This document shows positions 1-37,115 of a stretch of 37,115 nt of DNA, one piece after another (position 1 is the stretch's first letter; each line of letters opens with the position of its first letter). Location of the stretch: the NCBI GenBank assembly GCA_947570505.1, contig CANOTH010000009.1, positions 1-37,115 of the forward strand. Direction: 5' to 3'. Position numbers and translations under genes: made by a program. The notes beneath the pieces were generated by a model that was not told the DNA's origin, made no database searches, and worked only from the letters and a program-made list of their open reading frames with translations. This DNA comes from an uncultured Candidatus Saccharibacteria bacterium (GTDB lineage: Bacteria > Patescibacteriota > Saccharimonadia > Saccharimonadales > Saccharimonadaceae).

Positions 1-55
1 GTTACCTAAGTAACCAATATACCCTGTATTCAAATGGATCGCCCCGCTACGGACG
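1..55. repeat. Left arm of the 55-bp contig-terminal inverted repeat
   Basis: The first 55 bases are the exact reverse complement of 37061-37115; the match stops at base 56. The sequence is the conserved opening of a variable-region cassette. An exact length of 55 also matches a common short-read assembly k-mer, so the arm may mark where an assembly graph branched. It still shows that the same 55-mer adjoins both ends of this segment in opposite orientation. Confidence 0.9.
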
Positions 56-3463: not shown

Positions 3464-3673
3464 TTAGTATACCAAACAGCGGACGGGGAAACCGTAAGAG
3501 CGATGCTTACTATTATCTGATGAATTAACGCCAGAAAGATTAAAGCTGAGCTCATAAGCGGTATCGTAAGAGGAAAGATGATAATCACTGGCAATATTAG
3601 ACCAACTATATCCATTACGACCAACATATTTCAAAGAGTTGTAGGCTAAATCAACCCACCCGCTACGGACGAG
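3464..3673 (-). other. Stand-alone variable-region cassette 1 (FISUMP/C-type-lectin-like)
   Basis: Minus-strand translation opens LVRSGWVDLAYNSLKYVG and closes SYGFPVRCLVY-stop (stop at 3464-3466), with no internal stop. The pattern VRSG, GYSW, AYELSFN, GFPVRC is that of the C-terminal domain of Fib_succ_major (FISUMP) proteins, a known class of DGR target. A TGA in frame just upstream and the lack of a start codon mean it is not a normal gene. It diverges from cassette 2 across an inverted repeat. The DNA 3' of the stop holds the shared sequence around CTTAGTATACC. Confidence 0.7.
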
Positions 3674-3697
3674 TTTAGCTCATTTCGTCCGTAGCGG
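3660..3697. repeat. Inverted repeat joining head-to-head cassettes
   Basis: CCGCTACGGACGA (3660-3672) and TTCGTCCGTAGCGG (3684-3697) are inverted copies separated by 11 bp. Each is the conserved opening (F)VRSG of a cassette, so the two cassettes diverge from a short hairpin-forming centre. Confidence 0.8.
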
Positions 3698-3905
3698 AAC
3701 TATACAATTAGATTTCAATCATTATAGCATGTTAAGATCTCTTGGCCGTGACAGTTACGGATGGTTTAATACGACCACTGATTATAGTAGCTCAACCTCA
3801 AGTAATACTAAAGCTTATAATTTTGCCGCCAATGTTTTAGGAATCTACCCATCAAATGGTCCGTGGGAACGTTGGTACGGTTTCTCCGTCCGCTGTTTGG
3901 TATAG
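3684..3905 (+). other. Stand-alone variable-region cassette 2
   Basis: The plus strand encodes FVRSGTIQLDFNHYSMLRSL, then a Ser/Thr/Asn-rich stretch, and closes RWYGFSVRCLV-stop at 3903-3905. It has the same ends as the other cassettes but a quite different middle (WERW at the -RW- site, TTTDYSSSTSSNTKAYNF in the core). No start codon or ribosome binding site is present. It is probably a silent copy or relic rather than an expressed gene. Confidence 0.7.
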
Positions 3906-5964: not shown

Positions 5965-6056
5965 GATTATTTTCTCGTCCACTGTTTTCTAATATATATC
6001 ACAAAGTAGTAGCAGAAATACACTAACACCCATCTGCTAGTTAGCCTAAAGGTAAA
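5965..6056. other. Intergenic region after alaS
   Basis: No reading frame. A short hairpin, CTAGTT and CC paired with GG and AACTAG around TAAA (about 6037-6060), abuts the 3' end of cassette 3. This may be the transcription stop of either neighbour. Confidence 0.35.
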
Positions 6057-6263
6057 CTAGTATACCAAACAGCGGACGGGGAAACCGTACCAACGAACAT
6101 AGTTAACGGACGAGCCAACATCTGAAGGATTGAAGTAGAGGTAGTAAGCAGTAGCAGAGGTAGGTGACGAGTAAGTACTAGCAACACGAGACCAACCGTC
6201 GCCATCGAAGCCAAAGCTCCTCAGAGCGCTATTATTAAGATTAATCCACCCGCTACGGACGAA
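6057..6263 (-). other. Stand-alone variable-region cassette 3
   Basis: Minus-strand translation runs FVRSGWINLNNSALRSFG through YSSPTSATAYYLYFNPS to RWYGFPVRCLVY-stop (6057-6059). This is a textbook FISUMP C-terminal pattern. Compared with cassette 5 it has 19 amino-acid differences; 17 are in codons with the same third base C or T that can be derived from AAC or AAT. A nominal ATG at 6300-6302 gives an 81-aa frame, but nothing like the N-terminal body of a FISUMP protein precedes it. Confidence 0.75.
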
Positions 6264-6525
6264 GTAAAGAGGCTCTCTAGCTATATTATAGCTACCATTC
6301 ATTAGAATAATCTTTCTTCTTAGTTTGTATGCGCTACTAATTATAAAGATTATTCTTTTATTTGTAGTTATTTCTTCCTGGATTCGTTAAGGAAGCTCAA
6401 ACTCAAACCCCCTCCTCAAAATGAACTTTTTATGCTAAAATTAACCCAAAAGGTCATCGCACAGAAGAATAATTATACCCTATTCTTCCATTATATCACA
6501 GATTACATAAAAAGTCAATATAAAA
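6264..6525. other. Intergenic region before the MFS-like gene
   Basis: No convincing gene. An inverted pair GAAGAATA / TATTCTTC (about 6466-6490) could fold in the leader of the next gene. A TATAAT reading leftward lies near 6286-6291, just before cassette 3, so some transcription through that cassette is possible. Confidence 0.35.
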
Positions 6526-7836
6526 ATGAAAGTTTGTCCTCAAAAAAGCCGGAAACTCCATCAATCACGCAGAAAATATCAATCTAGCCGTACTCGAGCT
6601 GAAAAAAAGATTTTGCTGATGTTGGCTTTCTTTAGCACTTCTGTAGGGTTATGGGAGAATTTTCGTCAGCTATGGCTCCAAGATAATGGCTATTCGGCTA
6701 GTGAGATTAGCCAAATTACCGGTCTATCTACTTTAGTCAGTGTAGGAGCAATCATTTTGGTTGGACGATTTTTAAGAAACAACCATTTGCAGCACTTCAT
6801 GACTGGCATCCTTGGCCTAAAATTTTTGAATTTACTCTGGCTTTTGACCCTCAATCAGACTGGTCAAAATTTACTCATCAATTTCAATACGATTATCGAC
6901 ATCATCACTACTTATTTAGTCGTGACTAGCATCTATCCGTTAGTCACGACCGTCATGAAAAGCAATCGTGCCTATAGTAAGCGCAAACTTGTCGAATATT
7001 GGTTCCGGGATATTGGAGTCTTGATTGGAGGTATTCTCATCGGGCAGTTCTTTAGCAATCTAGGCACTGAATATGAGGTCTGTCTAGTGATGGCGGCTGG
7101 TTGTATGCTGATGGCGGCTATCGTCATGGGCACTATCAAAATTCGTATTACGGAGAGTACTCATACTGCCAAGCCCACACCAATTATCAAATATGTCGCT
7201 AAGAGTCGAATCCAAGTCTTTTACTTGATCTATGCTTTTTTGGCCGCTTGCTCTTTTGCTACAGCTCTCGGTCTGAAAATGTTGATTTTGATTAATACTC
7301 TATCCTTCTCGATGGGTACCGCTACTAATTATCTCTTGATTGTCGGCCTAATTTCGGACGTGATCGGCTATTATGCTCTCAAATATTTTACTCCGAAAAA
7401 CGACTATCTGACGATTACGATTAAGTTTGGTATTCGCCTGGGGGCTTATGTGATTGCGATTCTGGCTAATGACCCATTTATGTCGCTACTAGCTATTACT
7501 TGGTCAATCATGATCTCGACCGCCTATGAGGACGTGACTGATGGCTATTATATCAACTTGATAGATAATAAGCACCAGTTTAGTCATAGTACACTTAAGC
7601 ACGTGATGTCTTATCTAGGCGAAGCGACAGGAGTAATTCTCTGTGGTATGATGTATGACTATGGATTGGCCTACATCTTTGGCCTGTCGGCAGCGATCAT
7701 GGTTGTCCAGATGGGGGTAGCCTATTACCTCATCAATTTGCGCAAACGGCGCCGGCGGGTGCGACATTCGGCCTCACGTATGCGCTATCACGAATCAATC
7801 ACTCGATCTGAAGCGACCCTTGAGATTCATGAATAG
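6526..7836 (+). CDS. Multi-pass membrane protein, MFS-transporter-like
   Basis: 436 aa with a basic N-terminus (about 25 residues) and about ten to twelve hydrophobic segments, ending in a very basic tail (RKRRRRVRHSASRMR). The general plan, two halves joined by a hydrophilic stretch near residues 205-225, resembles major facilitator proteins, and RNNHLQHF could correspond to a loop 2-3 motif in weak form. The substrate cannot be told. The ATG at 6526 has no good Shine-Dalgarno site, and TATAAA lies immediately before it, so the true start could be slightly downstream (for example at MLAFFST). The gene ends 37 bp before the helicase gene, which has its own promoter. Confidence 0.7.
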   Translation: MKVCPQKSRKLHQSRRKYQSSRTRAEKKILLMLAFFSTSVGLWENFRQLWLQDNGYSASEISQITGLSTLVSVGAIILVGRFLRNNHLQHFMTGILGLKFLNLLWLLTLNQTGQNLLINFNTIIDIITTYLVVTSIYPLVTTVMKSNRAYSKRKLVEYWFRDIGVLIGGILIGQFFSNLGTEYEVCLVMAAGCMLMAAIVMGTIKIRITESTHTAKPTPIIKYVAKSRIQVFYLIYAFLAACSFATALGLKMLILINTLSFSMGTATNYLLIVGLISDVIGYYALKYFTPKNDYLTITIKFGIRLGAYVIAILANDPFMSLLAITWSIMISTAYEDVTDGYYINLIDNKHQFSHSTLKHVMSYLGEATGVILCGMMYDYGLAYIFGLSAAIMVVQMGVAYYLINLRKRRRRVRHSASRMRYHESITRSEATLEIHE

Positions 7837-7873: not shown

Positions 7874-10042
7874 ATGAATGCGATTTTAGGAGGTTTAAAT
7901 CCAGCTCAACAAGAGGCGGTCGAGGTTCTGAGCGGTCCGGTCTTGATTTTGGCGGGGGCAGGTTCAGGTAAAACTAAGGTATTGACTCATCGCATCGCTA
8001 ATCTAATCGCTCATGGTACCAGGCCAGATCAGATTCTAGCGGTCACTTTCACTAACAAGGCGGCCAAAGAAATGCGAGTGCGCCTCTGGAAGCTGTTAGA
8101 GCGCCAGCAGGGTCCCGAGTTTGATGACACGGGCTTAGAGCCGCCACGTTCATTTATGCCCTATATGGGTACCTTCCACGGTATTTGTGTGCGGATTTTG
8201 CATATCGAACACCTTGCGGCGGGGGTAGAACGCAACTTTACGATTTATGATTCCGATGACCAGCTAACTTTGATTCGCCGGATTCTACGCAATTTGCACC
8301 TGACAGGCGATAAAAGTCTCACTCCGAAAATTGTCCATGGGCAGATCTCGCACTGGCAGACCCTCGGTATGTCACCTCAGGATGCTACCAAGGAAGCCTT
8401 TTATCCTAATCAGAAGAAGATCTCCGAAGTCTATGTCGAATACGAACGTGAGAAACGGGCAGCTGGAGCATTGGATTTTGATGATTTGCTCACTCGCACG
8501 GCTGATTTGCTGCAATCTAATAGCGAAGTGCGAGCAAAATGGCAACAAAAGTTTCAACATATTTTAATTGATGAGTATCAGGACACGAATTCTGTGCAAT
8601 ATCGCCTGATTAAGTATCTAGTGAATGCTGAGCGCAATATCTGCGTCGTTGGCGATGACTGGCAATCAATTTATTCTTGGCGCGGGGCTGATTTTACTAA
8701 TATCCTGAATTTTGAACGGGATTTTCCGGGTGCCAAAGTGATTAAACTGGAGCAAAATTACCGCAGTACTGGTAATATTTTGGCTGCCTCCCAGAAGATT
8801 ATTAATCAAAACAAGACCCGTACCGATAAGCATTTATTTACTGAGGCCGGTAATGGGAACCCGATTACAATCGAGAACCTGCTGGATGAGAACGGTGAGG
8901 CCAATTACGTTGCGCACCAGATTGTTAAGATGGAGCCTGGGCGGAAGTGGAGTGATTTTGCGATTCTATATCGTACCAATGCGCAGTCTTCGGCTTTTGA
9001 AAAGGCTTTTATGGCCGCTAAAATACCATATAAGATCATCGGCGGAGTGAGGTTTTATGATCGCAAAGAGGTCAAAGATCTGCTAGCAATTTTGAAGTTA
9101 CTGGCTAATCCCCATGATCGTGTCAGTTTGGAGCGGGTAGCAAAGAATATCCTGGCTGGAGTTGGGCAGGCTTCACTAGATAAACTGTTTGCGCAGTTTG
9201 ACGCAGATCCTGAAGTTAGCCTGCGTACAGCTGCCGAAAGTTTGGGTGGCAAAGCGAAAATGTCGGTTCTCAGGTTGGCGAATTTTATTGAAGAGTATCG
9301 AGGGCAAATTGTGATTTCGGCTGAAGTGGAAGAGGGAGACCAAAAGGACACTTCAGCCACGGCAACGGCGCAGACTTTGGAACTAGCAGAAGTTGTAGAG
9401 CAAGCTGTAAAGTATTTTGATTTTGCCACTCTAGTACATAGCGAAACTCCCGACGGCGAAGAACGCATGCGCAACCTTGAGGTGCTAGCTAGTAATGCTA
9501 CCGTTTATGAATCGCTGGAGGAGTTTTTGACTGATGCTAGCTTGCTTAGCTCAGCAGACGAAGCTAATTCTGGCAATGCAGTGACCATGATGACTCTGCA
9601 TGCGGCTAAGGGCTTGGAATTTCCAATCGTGTTTATTGTTGGCCTGGAAGAAGGATTATTCCCGAGTAGCAGATCGGACGGTTCCGAAGAAGCTTTAGAG
9701 GAGGAACGGCGACTGGCTTATGTCGGTATGACCAGGGCTATGAAGGAACTGTTTTTGACTTTTGCTAGTTCTAGATATGCTTTTGGCGGTCGTACCTATA
9801 ATGCTCCCTCACAATTTCTGCTGGAATTGGGGTACAATCCTTACGGTTCGGGTGGTTTTGGCGAATCAGGGGCATATGACATCGTCATGAGTAATGATAG
9901 CGCAGATTTTGGAATTTTGGGCGGTGATCCGGATGGGGAATTTGCTCGTAAAAAGACCAAGGAAGATAACTTTGAATCACAGCCCGAGCCAGTCGATACA
10001 TTTGATTCTTTCCCAGAAGATGTGCCAGTTTTTGAAGGATGA
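7874..10042 (+). CDS. UvrD/PcrA-type superfamily 1 DNA helicase
   Basis: ATP-driven 3'-5' helicase for nucleotide excision repair, mismatch repair or clearing of RecA and replication blocks. It shows LNPAQQEAV (Q motif), GAGSGKT (motif I), AVTFTNKAAKEM (Ia), DEYQDTN (II), VGDDWQSIYSWRGAD (III), LEQNYRS (IV), MTLHAAKGLEFPIVFIVGLEEGLFP (V) and EERRLAYVGMTRA (VI). All motifs are intact in 722 aa, normal length. The C-terminal 80 residues are acidic and low in complexity, as in the interaction tails of PcrA/UvrD. It ends in TGA, the only TGA stop among the main genes here, which shows that the standard code is used. uvrA lies in the same window but not in the same operon. Confidence 0.94.
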   Translation: MNAILGGLNPAQQEAVEVLSGPVLILAGAGSGKTKVLTHRIANLIAHGTRPDQILAVTFTNKAAKEMRVRLWKLLERQQGPEFDDTGLEPPRSFMPYMGTFHGICVRILHIEHLAAGVERNFTIYDSDDQLTLIRRILRNLHLTGDKSLTPKIVHGQISHWQTLGMSPQDATKEAFYPNQKKISEVYVEYEREKRAAGALDFDDLLTRTADLLQSNSEVRAKWQQKFQHILIDEYQDTNSVQYRLIKYLVNAERNICVVGDDWQSIYSWRGADFTNILNFERDFPGAKVIKLEQNYRSTGNILAASQKIINQNKTRTDKHLFTEAGNGNPITIENLLDENGEANYVAHQIVKMEPGRKWSDFAILYRTNAQSSAFEKAFMAAKIPYKIIGGVRFYDRKEVKDLLAILKLLANPHDRVSLERVAKNILAGVGQASLDKLFAQFDADPEVSLRTAAESLGGKAKMSVLRLANFIEEYRGQIVISAEVEEGDQKDTSATATAQTLELAEVVEQAVKYFDFATLVHSETPDGEERMRNLEVLASNATVYESLEEFLTDASLLSSADEANSGNAVTMMTLHAAKGLEFPIVFIVGLEEGLFPSSRSDGSEEALEEERRLAYVGMTRAMKELFLTFASSRYAFGGRTYNAPSQFLLELGYNPYGSGGFGESGAYDIVMSNDSADFGILGGDPDGEFARKKTKEDNFESQPEPVDTFDSFPEDVPVFEG

Positions 10043-10065
10043 TCAGGATTTAAAGCATAAAAATC

Positions 10066-10094
10066 TTGACAAAAGAGATAACATTTGATATAAT
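10066..10094 (+). promoter_or_regulatory. Consensus promoter of the rpf-like gene
   Basis: TTGACA (10066-10071), a 17-bp spacer and TATAAT (10089-10094) form an exact sigma-70 consensus promoter. The ATG at 10104 is 9 nt from the -10, giving a leader of about 3 nt. Confidence 0.9.
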
Positions 10095-10103
10095 GGTATT
10101 GCA

Positions 10104-11138
10104 ATGATGAAATTGCAAAATAAATTACAGAATTTTTGCTGTGCCCTCATAGTGGTTGTGCTGGGTTTGTTTTTGGGACTTCAGTGCTTCATGCGAACGG
10201 GTACTGTTTTTGCTGAAGACCAGACCACAGAAGCAAATCCTGATGGTCGCTTTGTAACGATTTACGATAACGGGTCTTATCGTACCGTAAAGACCTCAGC
10301 CGATTCCGTACGAGAAGTCCTCGAGAAGGCTAATATTGAAGTAAATGCATCTGACATTGTGGAGCCAGGTTTGGACACGGTTTTGACCGGAGGGGACTAT
10401 AATATTAATATTTATCGCTCTCGGCCAGTAGTGGTGATCGACGGAGCCAAGAAGCGCTACCTGATGACCGCTAGTTATGATGCCAAGGTGATTGCTAAAG
10501 AAGCTGGGATCACGGTCTATGATGGTGATGAGATTAAACTAGTGCCAAATGATAATTTTCTCGAGGCTGGAGTAGCATCGACTTTTCGGATTGATCGCAG
10601 TGGCGGTCGTACAGTTACCGTAGAAGAAGTTTTGCCGTATACCACTGAGGTGCGCTATGATTATAACCTAGCTAAGGGTGAAACCCATCTAGAGCGGGCG
10701 GGCGAAGATGGTCGCAAAGTTAGTGTCTACGAGGTGCAATTTGCGAATAATGTTGAGGTATCACGGAAGCTAATTTCTGAAGAGGTAAAACTCGAGGCAG
10801 TTCCTGAAGTGGTGGTCGTAGGGGCTAAGATCTCGGTGGCTCCTAATCAAGAAATCTGCTTAGGCTGGCTACGAGAAGCTGGTGTGCCAGAAGAAAGCCT
10901 AGAGGCGGCAATATACATTATTTATCATGAGTCTGGCTGTAGAGTGGATGCTCGTAATGCTAGCTCTGGTGCATATGGTATTCCGCAGGCGTTGCCAGGC
11001 AGCAAAATGGCCAGTGCGGGTAGTGACTGGGAAACTAATCCTATTACTCAGATTCGCTGGATGAATAGTTATGTAACCGGTCGTTATGGTGGTTGGCAGG
11101 CTGCATTAGAATTCAAGCTCTCTAGAGGTTGGTACTAG
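10104..11138 (+). CDS. Secreted YabE/RpfB-like cell-wall hydrolase (DUF348-G5-lysozyme-like)
   Basis: A wall-remodelling enzyme exported by a hydrophobic segment (residues about 12-38, ending VFA). Two DUF348-type repeats follow (about 45-90 and 95-140), then a G5 domain (about 165-235, with EVQFANNVEVSRKLISEE). The last 90 residues are a lysozyme-like fold related to aggregation-promoting factor and Rpf: IIYHESGC holds the likely catalytic Glu, followed by SSGAYGIPQALPGSKM and the closing GWY. 344 aa. The gene is directly followed by rsmA (6 nt gap); yabE/rpfB beside ksgA is a conserved order in Firmicutes and Actinobacteria. Its near-perfect promoter suggests strong, steady expression. Confidence 0.9.
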   Translation: MMKLQNKLQNFCCALIVVVLGLFLGLQCFMRTGTVFAEDQTTEANPDGRFVTIYDNGSYRTVKTSADSVREVLEKANIEVNASDIVEPGLDTVLTGGDYNINIYRSRPVVVIDGAKKRYLMTASYDAKVIAKEAGITVYDGDEIKLVPNDNFLEAGVASTFRIDRSGGRTVTVEEVLPYTTEVRYDYNLAKGETHLERAGEDGRKVSVYEVQFANNVEVSRKLISEEVKLEAVPEVVVVGAKISVAPNQEICLGWLREAGVPEESLEAAIYIIYHESGCRVDARNASSGAYGIPQALPGSKMASAGSDWETNPITQIRWMNSYVTGRYGGWQAALEFKLSRGWY

Positions 11139-11144
11139 TTTACA

Positions 11145-11933
11145 ATGAAGAACAAGAAATCCTTGGGGCAGCATTGGCTAAAGAACCGCGTAATTTTGGA
11201 TGAGATTGCAGATTTGGCGGTGATGGAAGGTGAGCCAGTATCGCTTTGTTTGGAGATTGGACCGGGTCTTGGTACCTTGACTTCAAGTCTACTGCGACGT
11301 TTTGCGACCGTGATTGCAATTGAATACGATGAAAAGCTAGCCGGGAATTTACCAAGGTCATTCCCGGGCAAAAATCTCCAGGTGATACAGGGAGATATTC
11401 TTGATACGGATATTGCTCGATTGGTTGGAGCTAAGCCCTATGTGGTCGTAGGAAATATTCCTTATTATATTACTTCGCCGATTATCCAGAAACTAATTAA
11501 TACTATTCCTAGACCGCAAAAAATTGTTTTACTTATGCAAAAAGAGGTGGCGGAACGTATTGCGGCGGAGCCAGGAGATCACTCGGCCTTGTCACTAATA
11601 GTGCAAAATCGCGCCGTAGTAGAGTTGGGACCGGTAGTACCAGCCAGTGAGTTTACTCCTCCACCTAAGATTGATAGTCAAGTAGTTGTCTTGACCCCGC
11701 TGGAAGCGCCACAAATATCGGACGAGGCGCTTACTTTGGCTAAGAGAGGATTCTCTAGTCCACGTAAGAAGCTAGTAGCTAATTTGGCTACAACCGGTAT
11801 TTCGAAGGCTGCTTGGCGCGAGATTTTACAAAATCTAAAAATCAATCCAGATGCACGCGCTGAAGACTTAGACCTCTGGGATTGGGAAGAGTTGGCTAAA
11901 AAGCTACTTGAAAAAAGTCCTAGTTCGACGTAA
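11145..11933 (+). CDS. rsmA: 16S rRNA dimethyladenosine transferase RsmA/KsgA
   Basis: SAM-dependent enzyme that dimethylates two adjacent adenines in helix 45 of 16S rRNA late in small-subunit assembly. KSLGQHWLKN is the usual N-terminus; LEIGPGLGTLT is SAM-binding motif I; GNIPYYITSPII contains the NxPY-type catalytic motif; RGFSSPRKKL is the C-terminal family motif. 262 aa, full length. The ATG at 11145 is 6 nt after the stop of the rpf-like gene, so the two are probably cotranscribed. Confidence 0.96.
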   Translation: MKNKKSLGQHWLKNRVILDEIADLAVMEGEPVSLCLEIGPGLGTLTSSLLRRFATVIAIEYDEKLAGNLPRSFPGKNLQVIQGDILDTDIARLVGAKPYVVVGNIPYYITSPIIQKLINTIPRPQKIVLLMQKEVAERIAAEPGDHSALSLIVQNRAVVELGPVVPASEFTPPPKIDSQVVVLTPLEAPQISDEALTLAKRGFSSPRKKLVANLATTGISKAAWREILQNLKINPDARAEDLDLWDWEELAKKLLEKSPSST

Positions 11934-28888: not shown

Positions 28889-29008
28889 ACGTATGGTAGC
28901 CTAGAGCGAAAGCTCTATTAGCGCCGTTAAGGACTGCAAAGGTCAATCATCCTGTAGTCCAATACGGAAGGGCATATCATACAAAGGCGGATTTACTCCG
29001 CCTTTTTT
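28889..29008 (+). ncRNA. Candidate structured small RNA, about 120 nt
   Basis: Between a strong promoter and a terminator lies a segment that folds as a three-way junction. P1: GTATGGTA (28891-28898) with TATCATAC (28975-28982). P2: TAGAGC-GAAA-GCTCTA (28902-28917), a GNRA tetraloop hairpin. P3: CCGT plus GGACTGCA (28924-28938) with TGTAGTCC plus ACGG (28953-28967). A terminator AAAGGCGGA / TCCGCCTTT (28983-29005) with a T run ends it. I compared it by eye with 4.5S/SRP, 6S and tmRNA features and found none. Its last bases overlap, on the opposite strand, the 3' end of the gene at 28993-29430. Confidence 0.6.
28983..29008 (+). terminator. Rho-independent terminator of the small RNA
   Basis: Nine-pair stem AAAGGCGGA / TCCGCCTTT with a short loop and six T. 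The loop contains the stop codon (28993-28995) of the opposing gene. Confidence 0.85.
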
Positions 29009-29430
29009 GAAACGCAGAATACACTATAATACCTCAGCTTGCCACCATTACCAATTCGTCGCAGTATTACAGCAATCTCGTATCTGATACCATTAACCCT
29101 AATTTCCGAGCATAAACGGTAATAGTAGACGACTTTGGTTTTGCCGTTTATACTCTGAGCCCTAGTCGTTTCTTTTTCGTATTTAGTCGCATTAGCAACT
29201 AGTTCTGGAACGAAAGGTAAAAGATTAAGACGTAAACGTTGATCGACCTCGTTTCTACTCATACCTCTACCGTTATGAGTAGCATGGTAGAATCCGTCAG
29301 CGCTGAAAAGCACTGACTCTCCACCAAATGCTGGGCAGCACACCAGACTGTAGTTTTTATATTCCTTTCTCCTCAATGATTCTAGCTTTCGGATAGGCTT
29401 TTTGTGAGTTTCTTTAAAGACGATATTAAT
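28993..29430 (-). CDS. Small basic protein, possible barnase/RelE-like fold; unusual start
   Basis: No usual start codon fits well. A strong AGGAGG (29436-29441, minus strand) lies 6 nt before an ATT at 29428-29430, giving about 145 aa beginning with a start read as Met then NIVFKETHKKPIRKLESL; the next possible start is TTG at 29374-29376 without a Shine-Dalgarno site (127 aa). The product is rich in Lys, Arg and Tyr. Its C-terminal part (VVYYYRLCSEIRVNGIRYEIAVILRRI, then GKLRYYSVF) resembles in plan the beta sheet of small barnase/EndoU/RelE-like toxins and LPD-type phage domains, but this is a weak impression and no active site is assigned. It may be accessory DNA. Confidence 0.5.
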   Translation of the reverse strand: MNIVFKETHKKPIRKLESLRRKEYKNYSLVCCPAFGGESVLFSADGFYHATHNGRGMSRNEVDQRLRLNLLPFVPELVANATKYEKETTRAQSINGKTKVVYYYRLCSEIRVNGIRYEIAVILRRIGNGGKLRYYSVFCVSKKAE

Positions 29431-29540: not shown

Positions 29541-29579
29541 AAAATCAAAAAGCTTCACTCCTGCGAGAGAGTGAAGCTT
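29541..29579 (-). terminator. Terminator of the left surface-protein gene
   Basis: AAGCTTCACTC / GAGTGAAGCTT arms (29550-29560 and 29569-29579) followed on the minus strand by TTTTTGATTTTTT. Confidence 0.85.
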
Positions 29580-29595
29580 AAGATAGTTTCAAATA

Positions 29596-30192
29596 CTAGT
29601 CAGTAGTGGAAGCAGTTAAGACTACAGTTGCCTTGTATTCACCAGCAGGTAGACTTGAACCAGCGGTTGCTCCGAAGGCGAGCTTGGTAGTATAGACCTG
29701 CTTATCAGCATTAGTGGTCCAGCCAGCATCTGAATCTGTAACACTCACGACATCTTTGCTGCCTGTAGCTGGCACACCGAACCAGTTGCCCGTATCGTTA
29801 ACTTGGTAACCCCAAGAGTTGGTACCACCAGTTAAAGTAGTGACACCGGCAGCATCTGCAATCGCAGGGATAGAAGTATTGGTTTCGCTATTCATCAAAG
29901 CATTTCCGCTCGGAGCACTAATCTTCAATGAGTAAGCAGTAGCACTGTTGCCAGAAACTGTGACGGTTAATTCATTATCGCCAGCATTCTCACCAGTAGC
30001 GACACCGTTTAGTTTTAGGGTGCCTAGATCAACCTCAGTCTTATCGACGGCGATTGAGATAGCACCTTCAACCGTGGTTTTTACCGTGGTTTCGGTTGGT
30101 ACATCATAAGCATACGAACTCAGTGGCAATGCAGCTACACCAAGACCAGCTACAACACCTAAGACTGCGATAGCTTTTGACATTTTAGACAT
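29596..30192 (-). CDS. Phase-variable secreted surface protein B (predicted OFF)
   Basis: 198 aa. The signal peptide (1-28, MSKMSKAIAVLGVVAGLG... to SSYA) is identical in DNA to that of protein A at 31307-31909. The mature part is an all-beta, Thr/Ser/Val-rich domain with VDLGTL, TVTVSGNSATAYSLKISA, SWGYQ and AGEYKATVVLTAS, a pattern common in small secreted proteins of Saccharibacteria and reminiscent of WxL or pilin-like beta sandwiches; only one Trp motif is seen, so it is not a true WxL protein. AGGAG precedes the ATG. The promoter is incomplete: CATAAT with no -35 in this orientation of the invertible segment. Confidence 0.85.
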   Translation of the reverse strand: MSKMSKAIAVLGVVAGLGVAALPLSSYAYDVPTETTVKTTVEGAISIAVDKTEVDLGTLKLNGVATGENAGDNELTVTVSGNSATAYSLKISAPSGNALMNSETNTSIPAIADAAGVTTLTGGTNSWGYQVNDTGNWFGVPATGSKDVVSVTDSDAGWTTNADKQVYTTKLAFGATAGSSLPAGEYKATVVLTASTTD

Positions 30193-30257
30193 AAATTTCT
30201 CCTTTTGATTTTTGTCTTTTACTTGTTTATTTATATGACCTTTGTAATTGTTATTAT
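30109..30257 (-). repeat. Left 149-bp arm of the invertible segment
   Basis: Exact reverse complement of 31242-31390. Read on the minus strand it runs from five bases of the -10 box (ATAAT) through the leader and AGGAG to the last codon of the signal peptide of protein B. Divergence starts on the next base on both sides. Confidence 0.95.
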
Positions 30258-30286
30258 GTTGATATAAATAACGTTAAAGGAGTAAA

Positions 30287-31189
30287 ATGTCATACCACCT
30301 AGAGCAGGTCACGTCAAAACATAGCCGTATCTATCGACAAGTAGAGAATTATTATATTTATTGTGAACAGATTCGGGGCATGAGCCCAACTACCATGATT
30401 AGCAAAGTCTATACCATTAATCAGTTCATTGCTGTTACTCGTATAACAGATTTGCGCAAACTTTCCAACCGCCAAATCTACGATTGGATTAATTACCAAT
30501 TCAGCCGAGGCAACACTGGGCGCACGATCAATGATCGCTTAGCACATCTTAGGGCAATGTTGCATTGGCAGCAAAATATGAATGTCGTAATGCCCCATTT
30601 GCAGCTGGGTCTGATCACTAAAGCTAAGGAAGTACCGCCGCGCCAAGTTTGTTTTTCACGTCAAGAAATTCAATCCGTCTTAGCTACCGCAGATATCCAA
30701 GAATGGTTGCTGATTAAACTGGCTTTCGATTGCGGTTTACGAATCAGCGAGCTGTGTAAACTACAGCTCAACCATCTTCATGATGATGGCCGCATTTCTA
30801 TTCTCGGCAAAGGCAGTAAAAGGCGGTATGCCTATCTATCGCCCGAAGTGCAGTATAAACTACAGGTCTGGATTGCCGATCATTGCATTAATAAATATCT
30901 TTGGCCTAGCCCAATTTATCCTGATCAGCCACTAGCAACCTGTACCATTCGGCAGAAAATGCGAGATGCTTTTAGTCGGGCCGGGTTCAAGGATTTTCGG
31001 CCACACGATTTGCGACATTCATATGCAACTGATCTTAAGAAAATCGGTATTCCAACCCGTAAGATTCAGGCGGGTCTTGGCCATGCCTCAGAGGCTACTA
31101 CCGAACGATACTTGAGCGATTTGATCGGCTGGGATCTTTATGAGCTCTATCAGCAGAAATATAATTACTCGTCGGTCAGTGAGTGCTAA
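30287..31189 (+). CDS. Tyrosine recombinase (XerC/D-like), predicted invertase of the surface switch
   Basis: 300 aa. An N-terminal SAM-like DNA-binding domain (about 12-100) is followed by the catalytic domain with the full set of residues: R152 (CGLRISELCKL), K175 (GKGSKRR), H240 and R243 (RPHDLRHSYATDL), H266 (GLGHAS) and the nucleophile Y275 (TERYLSD). It cuts and rejoins DNA through a Tyr-DNA link without high-energy cofactors. It sits alone between two perfect inverted repeats, so it probably inverts its own gene together with the adjacent promoter. AAAGGAG (30275-30281) sets the start; TATAAA at 30263-30268 is a weak possible -10. It is not likely to be the chromosome-dimer XerC or XerD because of this setting. 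Confidence 0.92.
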   Translation: MSYHLEQVTSKHSRIYRQVENYYIYCEQIRGMSPTTMISKVYTINQFIAVTRITDLRKLSNRQIYDWINYQFSRGNTGRTINDRLAHLRAMLHWQQNMNVVMPHLQLGLITKAKEVPPRQVCFSRQEIQSVLATADIQEWLLIKLAFDCGLRISELCKLQLNHLHDDGRISILGKGSKRRYAYLSPEVQYKLQVWIADHCINKYLWPSPIYPDQPLATCTIRQKMRDAFSRAGFKDFRPHDLRHSYATDLKKIGIPTRKIQAGLGHASEATTERYLSDLIGWDLYELYQQKYNYSSVSEC

Positions 31190-31217
31190 AAATTGCAAAA
31201 ATTGTGCGAAAAACGTA

Positions 31218-31246
31218 TTGACTTAAGCATAACCATCCTATATAAT
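31218..31246 (+). promoter_or_regulatory. Movable promoter of the inversion switch
   Basis: TTGACT (31218-31223), a 17-bp spacer and TATAAT (31241-31246). The -35, spacer and first T lie in the unique invertible segment; ATAAT belongs to the repeat arm. Inversion would join this -35 to the arm of gene B and leave gene A with CATAAT and no -35. Confidence 0.88.
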
Positions 31247-31390
31247 AACAATTACAAAGGTCATATAAATAAACAAGTAAAAGACAAAAATCAAAAGGAG
31301 AAATTTATGTCTAAAATGTCAAAAGCTATCGCAGTCTTAGGTGTTGTAGCTGGTCTTGGTGTAGCTGCATTGCCACTGAGTTCGTATGCT
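31242..31390 (+). repeat. Right 149-bp arm of the invertible segment
   Basis: Exact reverse complement of 30109-30257. It covers ATAAT of the -10 box, the leader, AGGAG and codons 1-28 of protein A. Perfect identity over 149 bp between genes whose mature parts differ greatly points to continuing exchange between the arms. Confidence 0.95.
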
Positions 31391-31930: not shown

Positions 31931-31962
31931 AATCCCGTCCTCTCGCAGGGGCGGGATTTTTG
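31931..31962 (+). terminator. Terminator of surface gene A
   Basis: AATCCCGTCC pairs with GGGCGGGATT around TCTCGCA, with a T run. The loop CTCTCGCAGG resembles that of the gene B terminator. Confidence 0.85.
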
Positions 31963-31972
31963 CGTTTATGAC

Positions 31973-32001
31973 TTGAAAACCCAGATATGATGATATATAA
32001 T
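31973..32001 (+). promoter_or_regulatory. Promoter of the surface-complex genes
   Basis: TTGAAA (31973-31978), a 17-bp spacer and TATAAT (31996-32001), followed by a leader of about 15 nt with AGGAGGT before the ATG at 32022. The downstream genes can thus be made whichever surface gene is on. Confidence 0.85.
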
Positions 32002-32021: not shown

Positions 32022-32987
32022 ATGAAAGTTTTTCAAAGAGTTAGCAGTGTTTTGTGCGGCATGTTTTTAGCAATGAGCATGATCGTACTTAACCATAGTG
32101 CGGTTTTTGCCGAAGATAAGCAGCCAGAGTACCGTTTACAGGTTTCACCCGCCAAGCAAGATATTGGCGATCTTAAGCCCGGTGAATCTTATGCTGGTGC
32201 ATTTAAGGTGCAGAACACCGGCAAAAATTCTTTTGATTTTAAGGTTAGTGCATCCCCATATAGTGTGAAGGATGAACTCTATTCGCCGGAATATGATAAA
32301 AACAGTCAGTATACCGATATTGTCAACTGGATCAAGTTCTCTGCTACTACTGGACATGTAGATCCTAATCAAGAGCAGGAAATTGCTTATACGATCAAGG
32401 TTCCATCCGATGTCCCGGCTGGTGGTCAGTATTTAGCCATCACCGTCGAGCTGACCAATACTGGTACCACCGAAGGCTCTGGAGTGGCGATCACTCAGCA
32501 AGTTGGCTCTATTGTCTATGCTAACGTTCATGGTAATACTCGCAAGACCGGAGAGGTTATCGAAAATAAGATCCCTACCATTCTCTTTAATCCTCCAGTA
32601 TCTACTACCTCGATCGTCAACAATACTGGTAATACTCATGCTACAGCTAGCTACATCCTAGAGGTTTGTCCATTGTTTAGCGGTAAAGCTTCAGATGGTA
32701 CTCTCTGTGACGAAGAAGTTTACACCAACCGTGAAAACCCTGATACTCTTACAATCTTGCCCGAGACTCGTCGTTTTAATACTATTACTTGGCCAGGATC
32801 TCCAAAGCTGGGTATCTTCCGGGTTCGTCAGACTGTCAGTATGTTTGATCAGACCTCCACGGTAGAGAAAGTTGTCTTCTTGTGTCCGATTTGGTTTGCG
32901 TTTATCATCATATTACTCATCTTCTGCGCAGTATTTTGGATCATTACCCGTGTTCGTGCTCGGAGTCGCGACAATAGAAGTGAATAA
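32022..32987 (+). CDS. DUF916/WxL-interacting-like surface protein 1
   Basis: 321 aa: signal peptide (1-30, ending VFA), two Ig-like beta domains and a C-terminal membrane helix (about 289-309) with a short basic tail. YRLQVSPAKQDIGDLKPGESYAGAFKVQNTG and VPSDVPAGGQYLAITVELTNTG...SGVAITQQVGSIV match the pattern of DUF916-type proteins, which in lactic acid bacteria bind peptidoglycan and WxL proteins. Three cysteines occur in the second half. It is a paralogue of the next gene, sharing the VPxDVPxGxQY and GNTxxTxE motifs. It likely anchors or presents the switchable secreted proteins, though this rests on gene order only. Confidence 0.82.
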   Translation: MKVFQRVSSVLCGMFLAMSMIVLNHSAVFAEDKQPEYRLQVSPAKQDIGDLKPGESYAGAFKVQNTGKNSFDFKVSASPYSVKDELYSPEYDKNSQYTDIVNWIKFSATTGHVDPNQEQEIAYTIKVPSDVPAGGQYLAITVELTNTGTTEGSGVAITQQVGSIVYANVHGNTRKTGEVIENKIPTILFNPPVSTTSIVNNTGNTHATASYILEVCPLFSGKASDGTLCDEEVYTNRENPDTLTILPETRRFNTITWPGSPKLGIFRVRQTVSMFDQTSTVEKVVFLCPIWFAFIIILLIFCAVFWIITRVRARSRDNRSE

Positions 32988-33017: not shown

Positions 33018-34013
33018 ATGAAGAGAAAAATTTTAAGCCTGGCGCTAGCCACCATTTTAGTAGGCTTTGGTGCACTAGGCATGCCGAGACAGGTTTATGC
33101 TGACGAAGGTAACGAAGAAGATAAACCGACCACTTCTTTACAGATTTCCCCTACAGCCGTAACGGTCACTTTGATGGGTGGAGATGTACTCAGTGGTACG
33201 AGTGAGCGCTGCCCTAAGGACGTTGAAGGTGGCTGTGTAGTGCAGGTTAAGAATGTTGGTACCCAGAGCTTCCGCTATCGCGTCTATGCCTCGCCCTATG
33301 TTGTATCTGGCGAAGATTACCAGCTAGATTTTTCCGAAAGTGCATCCACCTCGTATACTCAAATTTCACGTTGGATCACTTTTAAGAACCCGGAGGGGAA
33401 TTACGAGTCAGAGGCCATTTATACAATTAATCCCGGAGAAACCCAAGTCATCGATTATCGCATTTCCGTACCAGAAGATGTTCCTGGAGGCGCGCAGTAT
33501 GCTGTAGTTTGGGCACAAACCTTGAGCGAAGGCGGCAGCGGTGTGCAAACAATTTCTCAAGCGGGGATGGTAATTTCTGGTCGTTCTATTGGTAATACCA
33601 AGCAAACCGCCGAAATTTTAGAATATGGTTTTACTCGGTTTGCGGTAGGCGGCAGTCTCAAAGCCAATGCTACAATTAAGAATACTGGTAATACAGATTT
33701 CGATGCCTATTATTACTACACAGCTAGAACAATTTTTGGTAAGGAGTTGAAGACTCTCTCGGGTTCGGTTTCAACCTTCCCAGACACCGAGTATCACGTG
33801 AACCTAGATTGGGACGAACCGCCGCTAATGGGCATTTTCCAAGTAGAATTCAAGGTTAATGCTGCCGACACTATCCGGGACGAAAAGCACATTGTGATCA
33901 TCATGCCGATTTTCATGATAGTTATTATAATTTTGTTGTTGACAGTCATAATTGTTTGGACTATAATCATAATCAGAAAGCGCAAAGAGCGCAAAGCCCG
34001 CACGTTAGTGTAG
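33018..34013 (+). CDS. DUF916/WxL-interacting-like surface protein 2
   Basis: 331 aa with the same plan: signal peptide (1-28, ending VYA), two beta domains and a C-terminal membrane helix (about 293-319) with a strongly basic tail (RKRKERKARTLV). LQISPTAVTVTLMGGDVLSG opens the first domain; VPEDVPGGAQYAVVWAQTLSEGGSGVQTISQAG is the shared core. One pair of cysteines (SERCPKDVEGGCVV) could form a disulfide. GGAGGT lies 9 nt before the ATG; the 30-bp gap after its paralogue indicates one operon. Probably arose by tandem duplication. Confidence 0.82.
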   Translation: MKRKILSLALATILVGFGALGMPRQVYADEGNEEDKPTTSLQISPTAVTVTLMGGDVLSGTSERCPKDVEGGCVVQVKNVGTQSFRYRVYASPYVVSGEDYQLDFSESASTSYTQISRWITFKNPEGNYESEAIYTINPGETQVIDYRISVPEDVPGGAQYAVVWAQTLSEGGSGVQTISQAGMVISGRSIGNTKQTAEILEYGFTRFAVGGSLKANATIKNTGNTDFDAYYYYTARTIFGKELKTLSGSVSTFPDTEYHVNLDWDEPPLMGIFQVEFKVNAADTIRDEKHIVIIMPIFMIVIIILLLTVIIVWTIIIIRKRKERKARTLV

Positions 34014-34124: not shown

Positions 34125-35081
34125 ATGCAAAAGACACAAAAGCAACTTTTAGGGCTTGCAGGTTTGGCGGCGGTCGGCATTATGACTGCTACTGCATATA
34201 TGATCCCAGCGCCGAACGCAGCGGCGGAAGCCGGTAATGGTGTTTATACTGAAGCCCCAGAGGCAGGTGAAGATTTTCAGGTAAATGTGACTGTTGAGAC
34301 CGGTCAAACGTCTTCATCCACCAATTCGCCTGCTGATGGTCAAGAGTTTAATACTAATCTTGTCCCAGTTAGCATCCGCTACGAGCGCATTAGCCGACTA
34401 GTCAGCACACTAAGCTTTATTGATGAGTCTGGTGTTGCACAGGAAAAAGTCGTAGACGATTTCGTACCAACTGGAGCTGCTAAAGATTCAGGTATACGTA
34501 CGTTCAATATTGATTTAGGACAGTATAAAAGCAAGGACAATCAATACAAACTCACAACTCAGGCCTACAACTTTGAGGGGCAAGCTATTCCGGCTGATGT
34601 GACAAAATTTAGTTATACTTCAACGATTGTCACCCCAGAGCCAAAGCCAGAAGAAGGCGGTAATCCATTCATCGAAATCGATGTAAATGACGATGTGGAA
34701 AAAGTTGTTATCCAGATTTATGATAAAGATGGTAATCCGATCTTAGTTGATAAGGACGGTAAAGAAACTCCAATCATTATTGACAAAAGTGCTTTTGGCG
34801 AAGATGGTAAGCTGAAGGTAGAATTACCACTAGACAAGTATGGAGTCAAAGAGGGAGAATATACGGTTGTAGTGGATGCTTATGACAAAAATGGCAACAT
34901 CATCTCTGTAAAAACTACACCAGTCGAATATACTCCAGCTACTCCAGAATTACCAAACACTGGTAGTCTAGTTGGCGAACTAAATATTTCTCGTCTGGAT
35001 TATATCGTAACTGGATTAATCGCTTTCGCTTTAATCTCTGGTTTCGCGGTCTATCTCGCACTACGCAAGAGCCGTCGCTAG
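34125..35081 (+). CDS. LPXTG-type (LPNTG) sortase-anchored surface protein
   Basis: 318 aa: signal peptide (about 1-35), beta-rich repeats with negatively charged loops (IYDKDGNPILVDKDGKETPI and VDAYDKNGNIISVKTTPVEY are similar units), a Pro/Thr spacer, and a complete cell-wall sorting signal: LPNTG at about 276-280, a hydrophobic stretch and the tail RKSRR. Sortase would link it to the wall; no sortase gene is present here. The order of small beta-rich secreted proteins, two DUF916-like proteins and an LPXTG protein resembles the WxL gene clusters of lactic acid bacteria. Confidence 0.88.
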   Translation: MQKTQKQLLGLAGLAAVGIMTATAYMIPAPNAAAEAGNGVYTEAPEAGEDFQVNVTVETGQTSSSTNSPADGQEFNTNLVPVSIRYERISRLVSTLSFIDESGVAQEKVVDDFVPTGAAKDSGIRTFNIDLGQYKSKDNQYKLTTQAYNFEGQAIPADVTKFSYTSTIVTPEPKPEEGGNPFIEIDVNDDVEKVVIQIYDKDGNPILVDKDGKETPIIIDKSAFGEDGKLKVELPLDKYGVKEGEYTVVVDAYDKNGNIISVKTTPVEYTPATPELPNTGSLVGELNISRLDYIVTGLIAFALISGFAVYLALRKSRR

Positions 35082-36124: not shown

Positions 36125-36149
36125 AATAGACACTTACGTGTCTATTTTT
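36125..36149 (+). terminator. Terminator after tRNA-Val
   Basis: AATAGACAC / GTGTCTATT with a TTAC loop and a T run. Confidence 0.88.
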
Positions 36150-36384
36150 GTTGATTTAAAGATCGGCACCGAACCGCGACATAGGATAGGCGGACGGGGA
36201 AACCGTTCCAACGATTGTTCGGGCCGTGGGACGGGCGAGACTCTGAGGTATTAAACTCAAACCAGTAAGAGTTAGCCAAGGTCGCAGAGGAGTAAGCTAC
36301 AGAGGTACGCGACCAGTCGTAGCCAATGTTGCCCGAGTTCCTCAGTGAGCCGTTGTTCAAGTTGACGTTCCCGCTACGGACGAA
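36142..36384 (-). other. Variable-region cassette 4, asparagine-rich with a different tail
   Basis: Minus-strand translation opens FVRSGNVNLNNGSLRNSG and reaches RWNGFPVR, then departs from the other copies (LSYVAVRCRSLNQQK-stop at 36142). It has eleven Asn codons (AAC or AAT) in about 70 codons, at many of the sites that vary in other copies, so it is the most template-like. A nominal TTG start near 36414 adds SLVPFQYFVRSG, where PFQYFVRSG may be a remnant of the body domain, but a stop lies a few codons further upstream. Confidence 0.7.
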
Positions 36385-36680
36385 GTACTGGAATGGAACC
36401 AGCGAGGTAGTCAATAGAAAAGCTATGAAGCCGGACTATCAGCCACAGCAAAAACGGTCAGAAATAGAATAGTCGTCAGGTTTAGAAGTTGATTTTAAGG
36501 CCCTAAGCCTTGGATTAGGGTGCATTCTAGCCTCTATAACTCTTTTGTAAGCTATGCAGAGGATAACTTCACGATCTTTATATGATTCAGGGAGCTGCTG
36601 GGAGCTGGAGCCAAAACCTCAAAATAGCCCCTTTAGATCCCATAAGCCTTAGGCTTACTAACTCATTTTATCACGTTCAA
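36385..36680. other. Region between cassettes 4 and 5
   Basis: No gene is seen. It holds a hairpin CCCTAA / TTAGGG (about 36502-36521) and a small palindrome TAAGCCTTAGGCTTA (about 36646-36660). The last bases (ACTAGTATACC) begin the 3' flank shared with cassette 3. Confidence 0.5.
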
Positions 36681-36887
36681 CTAGTATACCAAACAGCGGA
36701 CGGGGCGACCGTTCCAACGATTGTAGTTAGCCGACGGGTAAACACCTGAAGGATTGAAGTAGAGGCTGTAAGCATTAGCTGAGGTAGGTGACGAGTAAGG
36801 TTTAGCAGCCCGCGACCAACTGTAGCCAGAGCTGCCGAAGTCTCTCAGAGCACTATTACCAAGATTAACCCACCCGCTACGGACGAA
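36681..36887 (-). other. Stand-alone variable-region cassette 5
   Basis: Minus-strand translation runs FVRSGWVNLGNSALRDFG through YSSPTSANAYSLYFNPSG to RWNGRPVRCLVY-stop (36681-36683). It is the closest relative of cassette 3; the differences are mainly first- and second-base changes in codons ending in C or T. An open frame continues upstream to about 37034, but that part (MTFALGYRFF...) crosses hairpins and shows no FISUMP features. Confidence 0.75.
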
Positions 36888-37058
36888 AAAGGACTGCAAA
36901 TAGTGCAAAAAGTATCTTCTGTACAGGTTTACGTTTTTTAAAAAGTGTAAACCACACTTATCACACATAACAGGGTCAAGACGAAATTTTAGGCTATCAC
37001 TTTTGAAAAAACGATAGCCTAAAGCAAACGTCAATTTATATGACTAAATTAGCATTAC
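36888..37058. other. Spacer between cassettes 5 and 6 with two hairpins
   Basis: GGTTTAC / GTAAACC (about 36918-36947) and an 11-bp stem TTTAGGCTATC / GATAGCCTAAA (36988-36998 and 37013-37023) are the only structures. Nothing gene-like is seen. Confidence 0.5.
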
Positions 37059-37115
37059 TTCGTCCGTAGCGGGGCGATCCATTTGAATACAGGGTATATT
37101 GGTTACTTAGGTAAC
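37059..37115 (+). other. Partial variable-region cassette 6 at the right edge
   Basis: The plus strand encodes FVRSGAIHLNTGYIGYLGN and leaves the window. All sites from VRSG onward are identical to the left-edge copy. Cassettes 5 and 6 point away from each other, as do cassettes 1 and 2. Confidence 0.72.
37061..37115. repeat. Right arm of the 55-bp contig-terminal inverted repeat
   Basis: Exact reverse complement of bases 1-55; the next base inward differs. Confidence 0.9.

Follow-up and report, generated by a model that had tools for sequence, protein, structure and literature searches.

A predicted DNA-inversion switch between two secreted surface proteins, with its tyrosine recombinase gene inside the invertible segment, and related loci across a bacterial genus

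Introduction

Inversion of DNA segments underlies several known switches of bacterial surface structures. In Salmonella, the serine recombinase Hin is encoded inside the invertible H segment, from which an outward promoter drives one operon together with a repressor. In Campylobacter fetus, the S-layer genes of the sap locus are inverted in a RecA-dependent manner. At slpA/slpB of Lactobacillus acidophilus, inversion links one promoter to the active or the silent surface-protein gene (Boot 1996, cited in PMC6015585). Invertible promoters in Bacteroides and Clostridioides difficile are elements flipped by a tyrosine recombinase, such as RecV (PMC7446863). In the Vpma (Xer1) system of Mycoplasma agalactiae and the Vsp system of M. 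bovis, inversion joins one promoter to alternative silent genes; in Vpma the 5′ untranslated and signal-peptide regions are conserved, the sites lie in the 5′ leader and a tyrosine recombinase is encoded in the locus (PMC2268961).

We have studied a locus of this general kind in a stretch of 37,115 nucleotides (the window), which is contig C9 of a 1.23-Mb genome in 72 contigs, and compared it with a sample of 174 genomes of the same genus, mostly of 0.5-1.1 Mb. Two paralogous genes for secreted proteins, A and B, face outward on either side of a tyrosine recombinase gene. The arrangement shares with Vpma and Vsp a single promoter, inverted paralogous surface genes with a common leader and signal peptide, a recombinase gene in the locus (in the window and in its relatives) and a tiny-genome bacterium as its bearer, and in two relatives, G121 and G117, three cassettes are accompanied by a single promoter; this comparison is one of layout. 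It differs from them in having two genes, in placing the recombinase inside the flipping segment, and in encoding secreted, putative beta proteins instead of lipoproteins. A recombinase inside the invertible segment and an outward promoter at one end recall Hin, as do the inverted cores of G167 and G111 described below, but the window enzyme is a tyrosine and not a serine recombinase, and the promoter serves one of two outward paralogues. Slp and sap likewise involve inversion of a promoter to an active or silent surface gene, with common 5′ ends of the genes; they concern S-layer proteins, however, and the recombinase lies elsewhere or the process depends on RecA. The Bacteroides and C. difficile elements turn one operon ON or OFF, with the recombinase usually elsewhere in the genome. 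On the comparative evidence below, we consider it very likely that the window locus is a phase switch between A and B that operates by DNA inversion and is run by its own recombinase.

Results

Arms and core of the window locus

The elements of the locus are as follows.

29596..30192, minus strand: secreted protein A, 198 aa, predicted OFF; no promoter upstream
30109..30257, minus strand: left inverted-repeat arm, with the leader, SD and 28 signal-peptide codons of protein A
30258..31241, no strand: predicted invertible core of 984 bp between the arms; its counterparts at related loci have opposite orientations in different species
30287..31189, plus strand: tyrosine recombinase, 300 aa, intact
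31242..31390, plus strand: right inverted-repeat arm, with the leader, SD and 28 signal-peptide codons of protein B
31253..31276, plus strand (mirror copy 30223-30246): conserved leader element TACAAAGGTCATATAAATAAACAA
31307..31909, plus strand: secreted protein B, 200 aa, an ORF with the switch promoter upstream; predicted ON

The two arms are identical at 149 of 149 positions and lie 984 bp apart. A perfect 149-bp repeat within 37 kb is far beyond chance. Both arms stop exactly past codon 28 (...LSSYA) of A and B, the last predicted signal-peptide codon, so that recombination within the arms preserves both frames. A first-pass annotation of this DNA had described perfect 149-bp inverted repeats around a complete tyrosine recombinase gene, placed that gene inside the segment to be inverted, let the arms start inside the −10 box and finish with the final signal-peptide codon, and stated that both frames survive recombination anywhere in the arms. 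Each of these points is borne out by the repeats, by an intact 300-aa ORF contained within the core, and by arms that include ATAAT of the −10 box and terminate after codon 28.

Part of the arm is older than the switch. In five species that lack a recombinase there, the leader ACAAAGGTCATATAAATAAACA precedes the homologous surface gene as a single copy, which indicates that it is primarily a leader element and predates the switch. We considered TACAAAGGTCATATAAATAAACAA as the recombination site and dropped it, since it is present as a partnerless single copy in relatives without a recombinase at that locus (G112, G029, G150, G160 and G032). The leader element AAAGGTCATATAAATAAAC also precedes unrelated genes, at 6971 of L113 (G165) and 6534 of L114 (G003), and would appear to be a leader found across the genus.

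Promoters, terminators and predicted state

The following signals surround the genes.

29550..29579, minus strand: terminator after A
30230..30257, plus strand: weak extended −10 promoter-like match (9/12) in arm A, reading inward
31218..31246, plus strand: switch promoter TTGACT-17-TATAAT (11/12 consensus), facing B, the −10 spanning the core/arm border; also in G042 and G209
31931..31958, plus strand: terminator after B
31973..32001, plus strand: separate promoter-like site (11/12 consensus) of the surface operon downstream of B

The −10 box TATAAT occupies 31241-31246; the core contributes the first T and the arm the remaining ATAAT. The −35 sequence (TTGACT at 31218, with 17-bp spacing) is found only on the B side; the A side reads CATAAT without a −35. 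The sole strong promoter thus faces B and none lies upstream of A, from which B is predicted to be ON and A to be OFF. Because the −10 box spans the arm border, inversion would recreate the same promoter before A and deprive B of its −35. Since A and B have their own terminators and the operon downstream has its own promoter-like site, the switch probably selects between A and B and not between whole operons. It is possible that the inward promoter-like match in each arm drives the recombinase in either orientation, such matches being overall no more numerous than in shuffled sequence.

In the mechanism that we propose, the tyrosine recombinase encoded in the core would bind both arms and exchange them in inverted orientation, flipping the 984-bp segment. 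The flip would join the lone outward promoter to A or to B, with the leader and signal peptide common to both. We infer three points of this scheme: the arms as the target of the recombinase, flipping at the present day, and the position of the crossover that is discussed below.

The same layout in two other species

G042 has the complete layout adjoining uvrA, with two outward paralogues and a recombinase between perfect repeats of 66 + 19 bp; its switch promoter is the same as that of the window and lies on the operon side. The G042 recombinase is interrupted by a TAG stop, and the arms are beginning to drift, their signal-peptide segments being identical at 66 of 84 positions. In G209 we find uvrA, A and the recombinase; only the first 10 bases of the second arm, directly after the same promoter, are present before the contig stops. 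In all three window-type loci (the window, G042 and G209) the promoter is directed away from uvrA, giving one shared orientation. Between uvrA and A the window has a short minus-strand ORF (28993-29376) that encodes an LPD3 domain (E = 7e-8) and is missing at the G042 and G209 loci.

The two leaders are identical at 60/60 positions within the window and at 59/60 within G042, while the window leader is 73-78% identical to those of G042 and G209. The window-type recombinases are ~60% identical to one another. This divergence, taken with leaders that are alike within species and different between them, indicates that the switch is old and that its arms evolve in concert.

The window recombinase and its relatives

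The catalytic R-K-H-R-H-Y residues (R152, K175, H240, R243, H266 and Y275) are invariant and all present in the window enzyme, which belongs to PF00589 (Phage_integrase; E = 7e-29, 101 bits against a cut-off of 27). It scores below the curated NCBIfam cut-offs for XerA (126.6 against 220), XerC (111 against 335) and XerD (91 against 330), and below those for the Fim-type invertases PRK09870 and PRK09871 (33 against 221 and 31 against 222). A profile of the recombinase has 41 members across 38 of the 174 genomes of the genus; outside the genus, in a sample across the order, the sole member is in G401. Scanning genome contigs with the recombinase gave a single match, which is unrelated, and scans of viral contigs gave none.

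In a maximum-likelihood tree the three window-type recombinases group together (95/83), beside the prophage integrases of G049 and G057 (97/94), and the remaining invertases are placed elsewhere. These two integrases are the nearest relatives beyond the window-type trio and, unlike it, adjoin phage structural genes; no attachment repeats were found around their prophages. Several other relatives of the recombinase adjoin phage HTH, terminase and portal genes. Forcing all switch recombinases into one clade is rejected (AU p = 4.5e-5), for a group that was named after inspection of the tree and with some long branches. The simplest reading of the separate clades is that prophage integrases have probably been recruited as switches at least twice.

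This kinship could also mean that the recombinase and arms are together a small mobile or prophage-derived element, in which the enzyme serves integration and excision and the inverted repeats are the ends. That the nearest relatives outside the switch are prophage integrases would fit such an element. However, a leader and a signal peptide of the host lie within the arms, and the locus keeps a fixed place beside uvrA in three diverged species with phage genes absent nearby; we find this explanation scarcely credible, and retain the inversion switch.

In prophages of the genus (L037, 9485-10525 and 11358-12608; also L039, L040 and L176) a reverse transcriptase adjoins a tail-type gene. The end of the latter gene is a lectin-like tail that looks variable, an arrangement reminiscent of diversity-generating retroelements.

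A wider family of probable switch loci

Twelve further loci in the genus combine paired sites and related recombinases beside homologous surface genes, and a thirteenth is fragmentary.

G007, G167, G127, G111: recombinase inside the repeats
G018, G047, G038, G132, G191, G196: recombinase just outside the repeats (broken in G196)
G117, G121: three surface genes per locus
G034: thirteenth locus, fragmentary; its promoter-bearing arm lies where a contig ends

The site in the twelve loci is TTTAACACAAAATATAAA or a near variant, ~20 bp in length and unlike that of the window. It follows closely on TTGACA-17-TAAAAT/TATAAT-...-GTTAAAGGT. Wherever the arms could be read, in 11 further loci, the promoter is present on a single arm and missing from its counterpart or counterparts. 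In G191 and G038 only 19-21 bp of inverted repeat are shared, which favors site-specific over homologous recombination in that clade.

On contig L100 (G121) three surface operons, at 6072, 10668 and 12012, each have a recombination site, and only one has a promoter; by its layout, this arrangement is a multi-cassette version of the switch. Contigs L103, L043 (G034), L102 (G119), L104 (G053), L105 (G163), L117 (G149) and L163 (G209) end at or within ~150 bases of switch sites, which suggests repeat or orientation ambiguity during assembly.

Opposite orientations between species

Orientations were compared with the conserved flank set on the left, and collinear flanks were required. G018 and G047 have the promoter core in opposite orientations (11584-11744 against 10535-10374). 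The same holds for the close pair G191 and G196 (9925-10141 against 8981-8763), where the flanks are mostly 85-100% identical. G167 and G111 differ in this way too, and there the recombinase is part of the inverted core (6479-6822 against 6959-6578, and 7425-7600 against 4764-4590). These alignments are direct evidence, from genome comparison, that promoter cores of this kind do invert, including one with the recombinase inside. The expectation that both orientations would be found in related genomes thus holds for the wider family, in three species pairs; among the window-type loci, by contrast, all three promoters point one way. The window recombinase falls outside the clade of the inverted-core loci, so the support that they lend to it is by analogy of layout and through homologous target genes.

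The uniform orientation of the window-type loci (3/3) is what would be expected of a static locus, in which A and B are simply divergent paralogues whose arms are homogenized by gene conversion, A being a silent donor and B always on. The recombinase is intact and its active site conserved, which is hard to reconcile with this, as are the inverted cores at related loci, and we hold a static locus to be highly improbable.

Alternatively, RecA-dependent homologous recombination between the 149-bp arms might invert the segment, with the recombinase a mere bystander. The arms are long enough, and their perfect identity demands homologous exchange or conversion. Three observations argue against this. 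Recombinases of two separate clades are located at or in such loci; in the sister clade, species with arms as little as 19-21 bp long nevertheless differ in orientation (G191/G196); and in G042 the arms drift where the recombinase is broken. Inversion by RecA without the recombinase is unlikely, and we continue to favor a switch run by the encoded enzyme.

A candidate crossover site

Where in the arms might the recombinase act? The following positions are proposed.

31242..31255, plus strand: candidate crossover ATAA-TAACAA-TTAC, B side, with Xer-like half-sites and a 6-bp spacer
30244..30257, minus strand: candidate crossover site, A side, the mirror copy

On the silent side, CAACATAATAAMAAYTAC is retained in three species although the adjoining core has diverged. 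The silent copy of G042 is altered at the candidate crossover, alongside its broken recombinase. A crossover at the arm start, in ATAA-TAACAA-TTAC, is plausible. A point crossover cannot homogenize 149 bp, which calls for gene conversion or homologous recombination in addition. The inversion switch proposed in the first-pass annotation has gained comparative support from inverted relatives, from a layout common to three species and from arms that evolve in concert. The recombination site may be shorter than the full 149-bp arm.

Surface proteins A and B and their surroundings

Over the full-length proteins A and B are 41% identical, 28 of the identical positions being the signal peptide. The structure model of protein B is all-beta and of low confidence (pLDDT 56), and its top fold match in the PDB is the EcpA pilin (E = 1.3e-5, TM <0.4); a pilin-like fold of A and B is suggested weakly by this model, as a lead. 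A WxL label was not supported: 0 of 19 family members match WxL or another such Pfam family, and the matches obtained are weak and unrelated. Models of defense systems gave no match. Genes downstream of B include the following.

32022..32987, plus strand: membrane-anchored Ig-like protein, weakly resembling the WxL-interacting family; adjoins the surface genes in relatives too
33018..34013, plus strand: second protein of the membrane-anchored Ig-like type
34125..35081, plus strand: secreted protein with C-terminal LPNTG and a membrane segment (sortase-type anchor)

Degenerate, mostly start-less cassettes lie at 36679-37034, 36142-36414, 6055-6263, 3465-3507, 3648-3709 and 3870-3904 of the window. 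They encode lectin-like C-termini (RSGxVNLxN...RWNGxPVRCLVY), and one of them matches 68 places in its own genome; together they look like a genome-wide cassette reservoir. The two ends of the window (1-55 and 37061-37115) are perfect 55-bp inverted repeats of the same lectin-tail cassette family, and the assembly probably broke there on account of them.

Discussion

The mechanism proposed here is known elsewhere; what is new is the bacterial group, the layout and the parallel recruitment of recombinases. A search of the open-licence literature found no description of an inversion switch in Saccharibacteria or other CPR bacteria, in agreement with the first-pass annotation, which knew of no described case with this layout in the inferred host group. 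Judging by gene content and the size of its genome, the bearer of the window is probably a member of Saccharibacteria. The TM7905 probe target is present in several genera of the order and absent from those genomes of the window's own genus (g1) that were searched.

Beyond the window locus, we lean slightly toward a broader account. An entire genus of very small bacteria that depend on hosts, in all probability Saccharibacteria, would have turned prophage integrases into inversion switches of surface antigens at least twice and independently, at two chromosomal loci and in two-gene and multi-cassette forms, and clonal epibionts would thereby vary the coat that they show to host bacteria and phages.

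Several contigs end at switch sites, which may account for some of the assembly breaks. The loci provide a concrete set to track in existing long-read metagenomes. For bacteria with very small genomes whose life is spent attached to other bacteria, a self-contained switch would give a testable account of surface variation. Its presence in several species, with integrases probably recruited at least twice, bears on the interaction of these bacteria with their hosts or phages.
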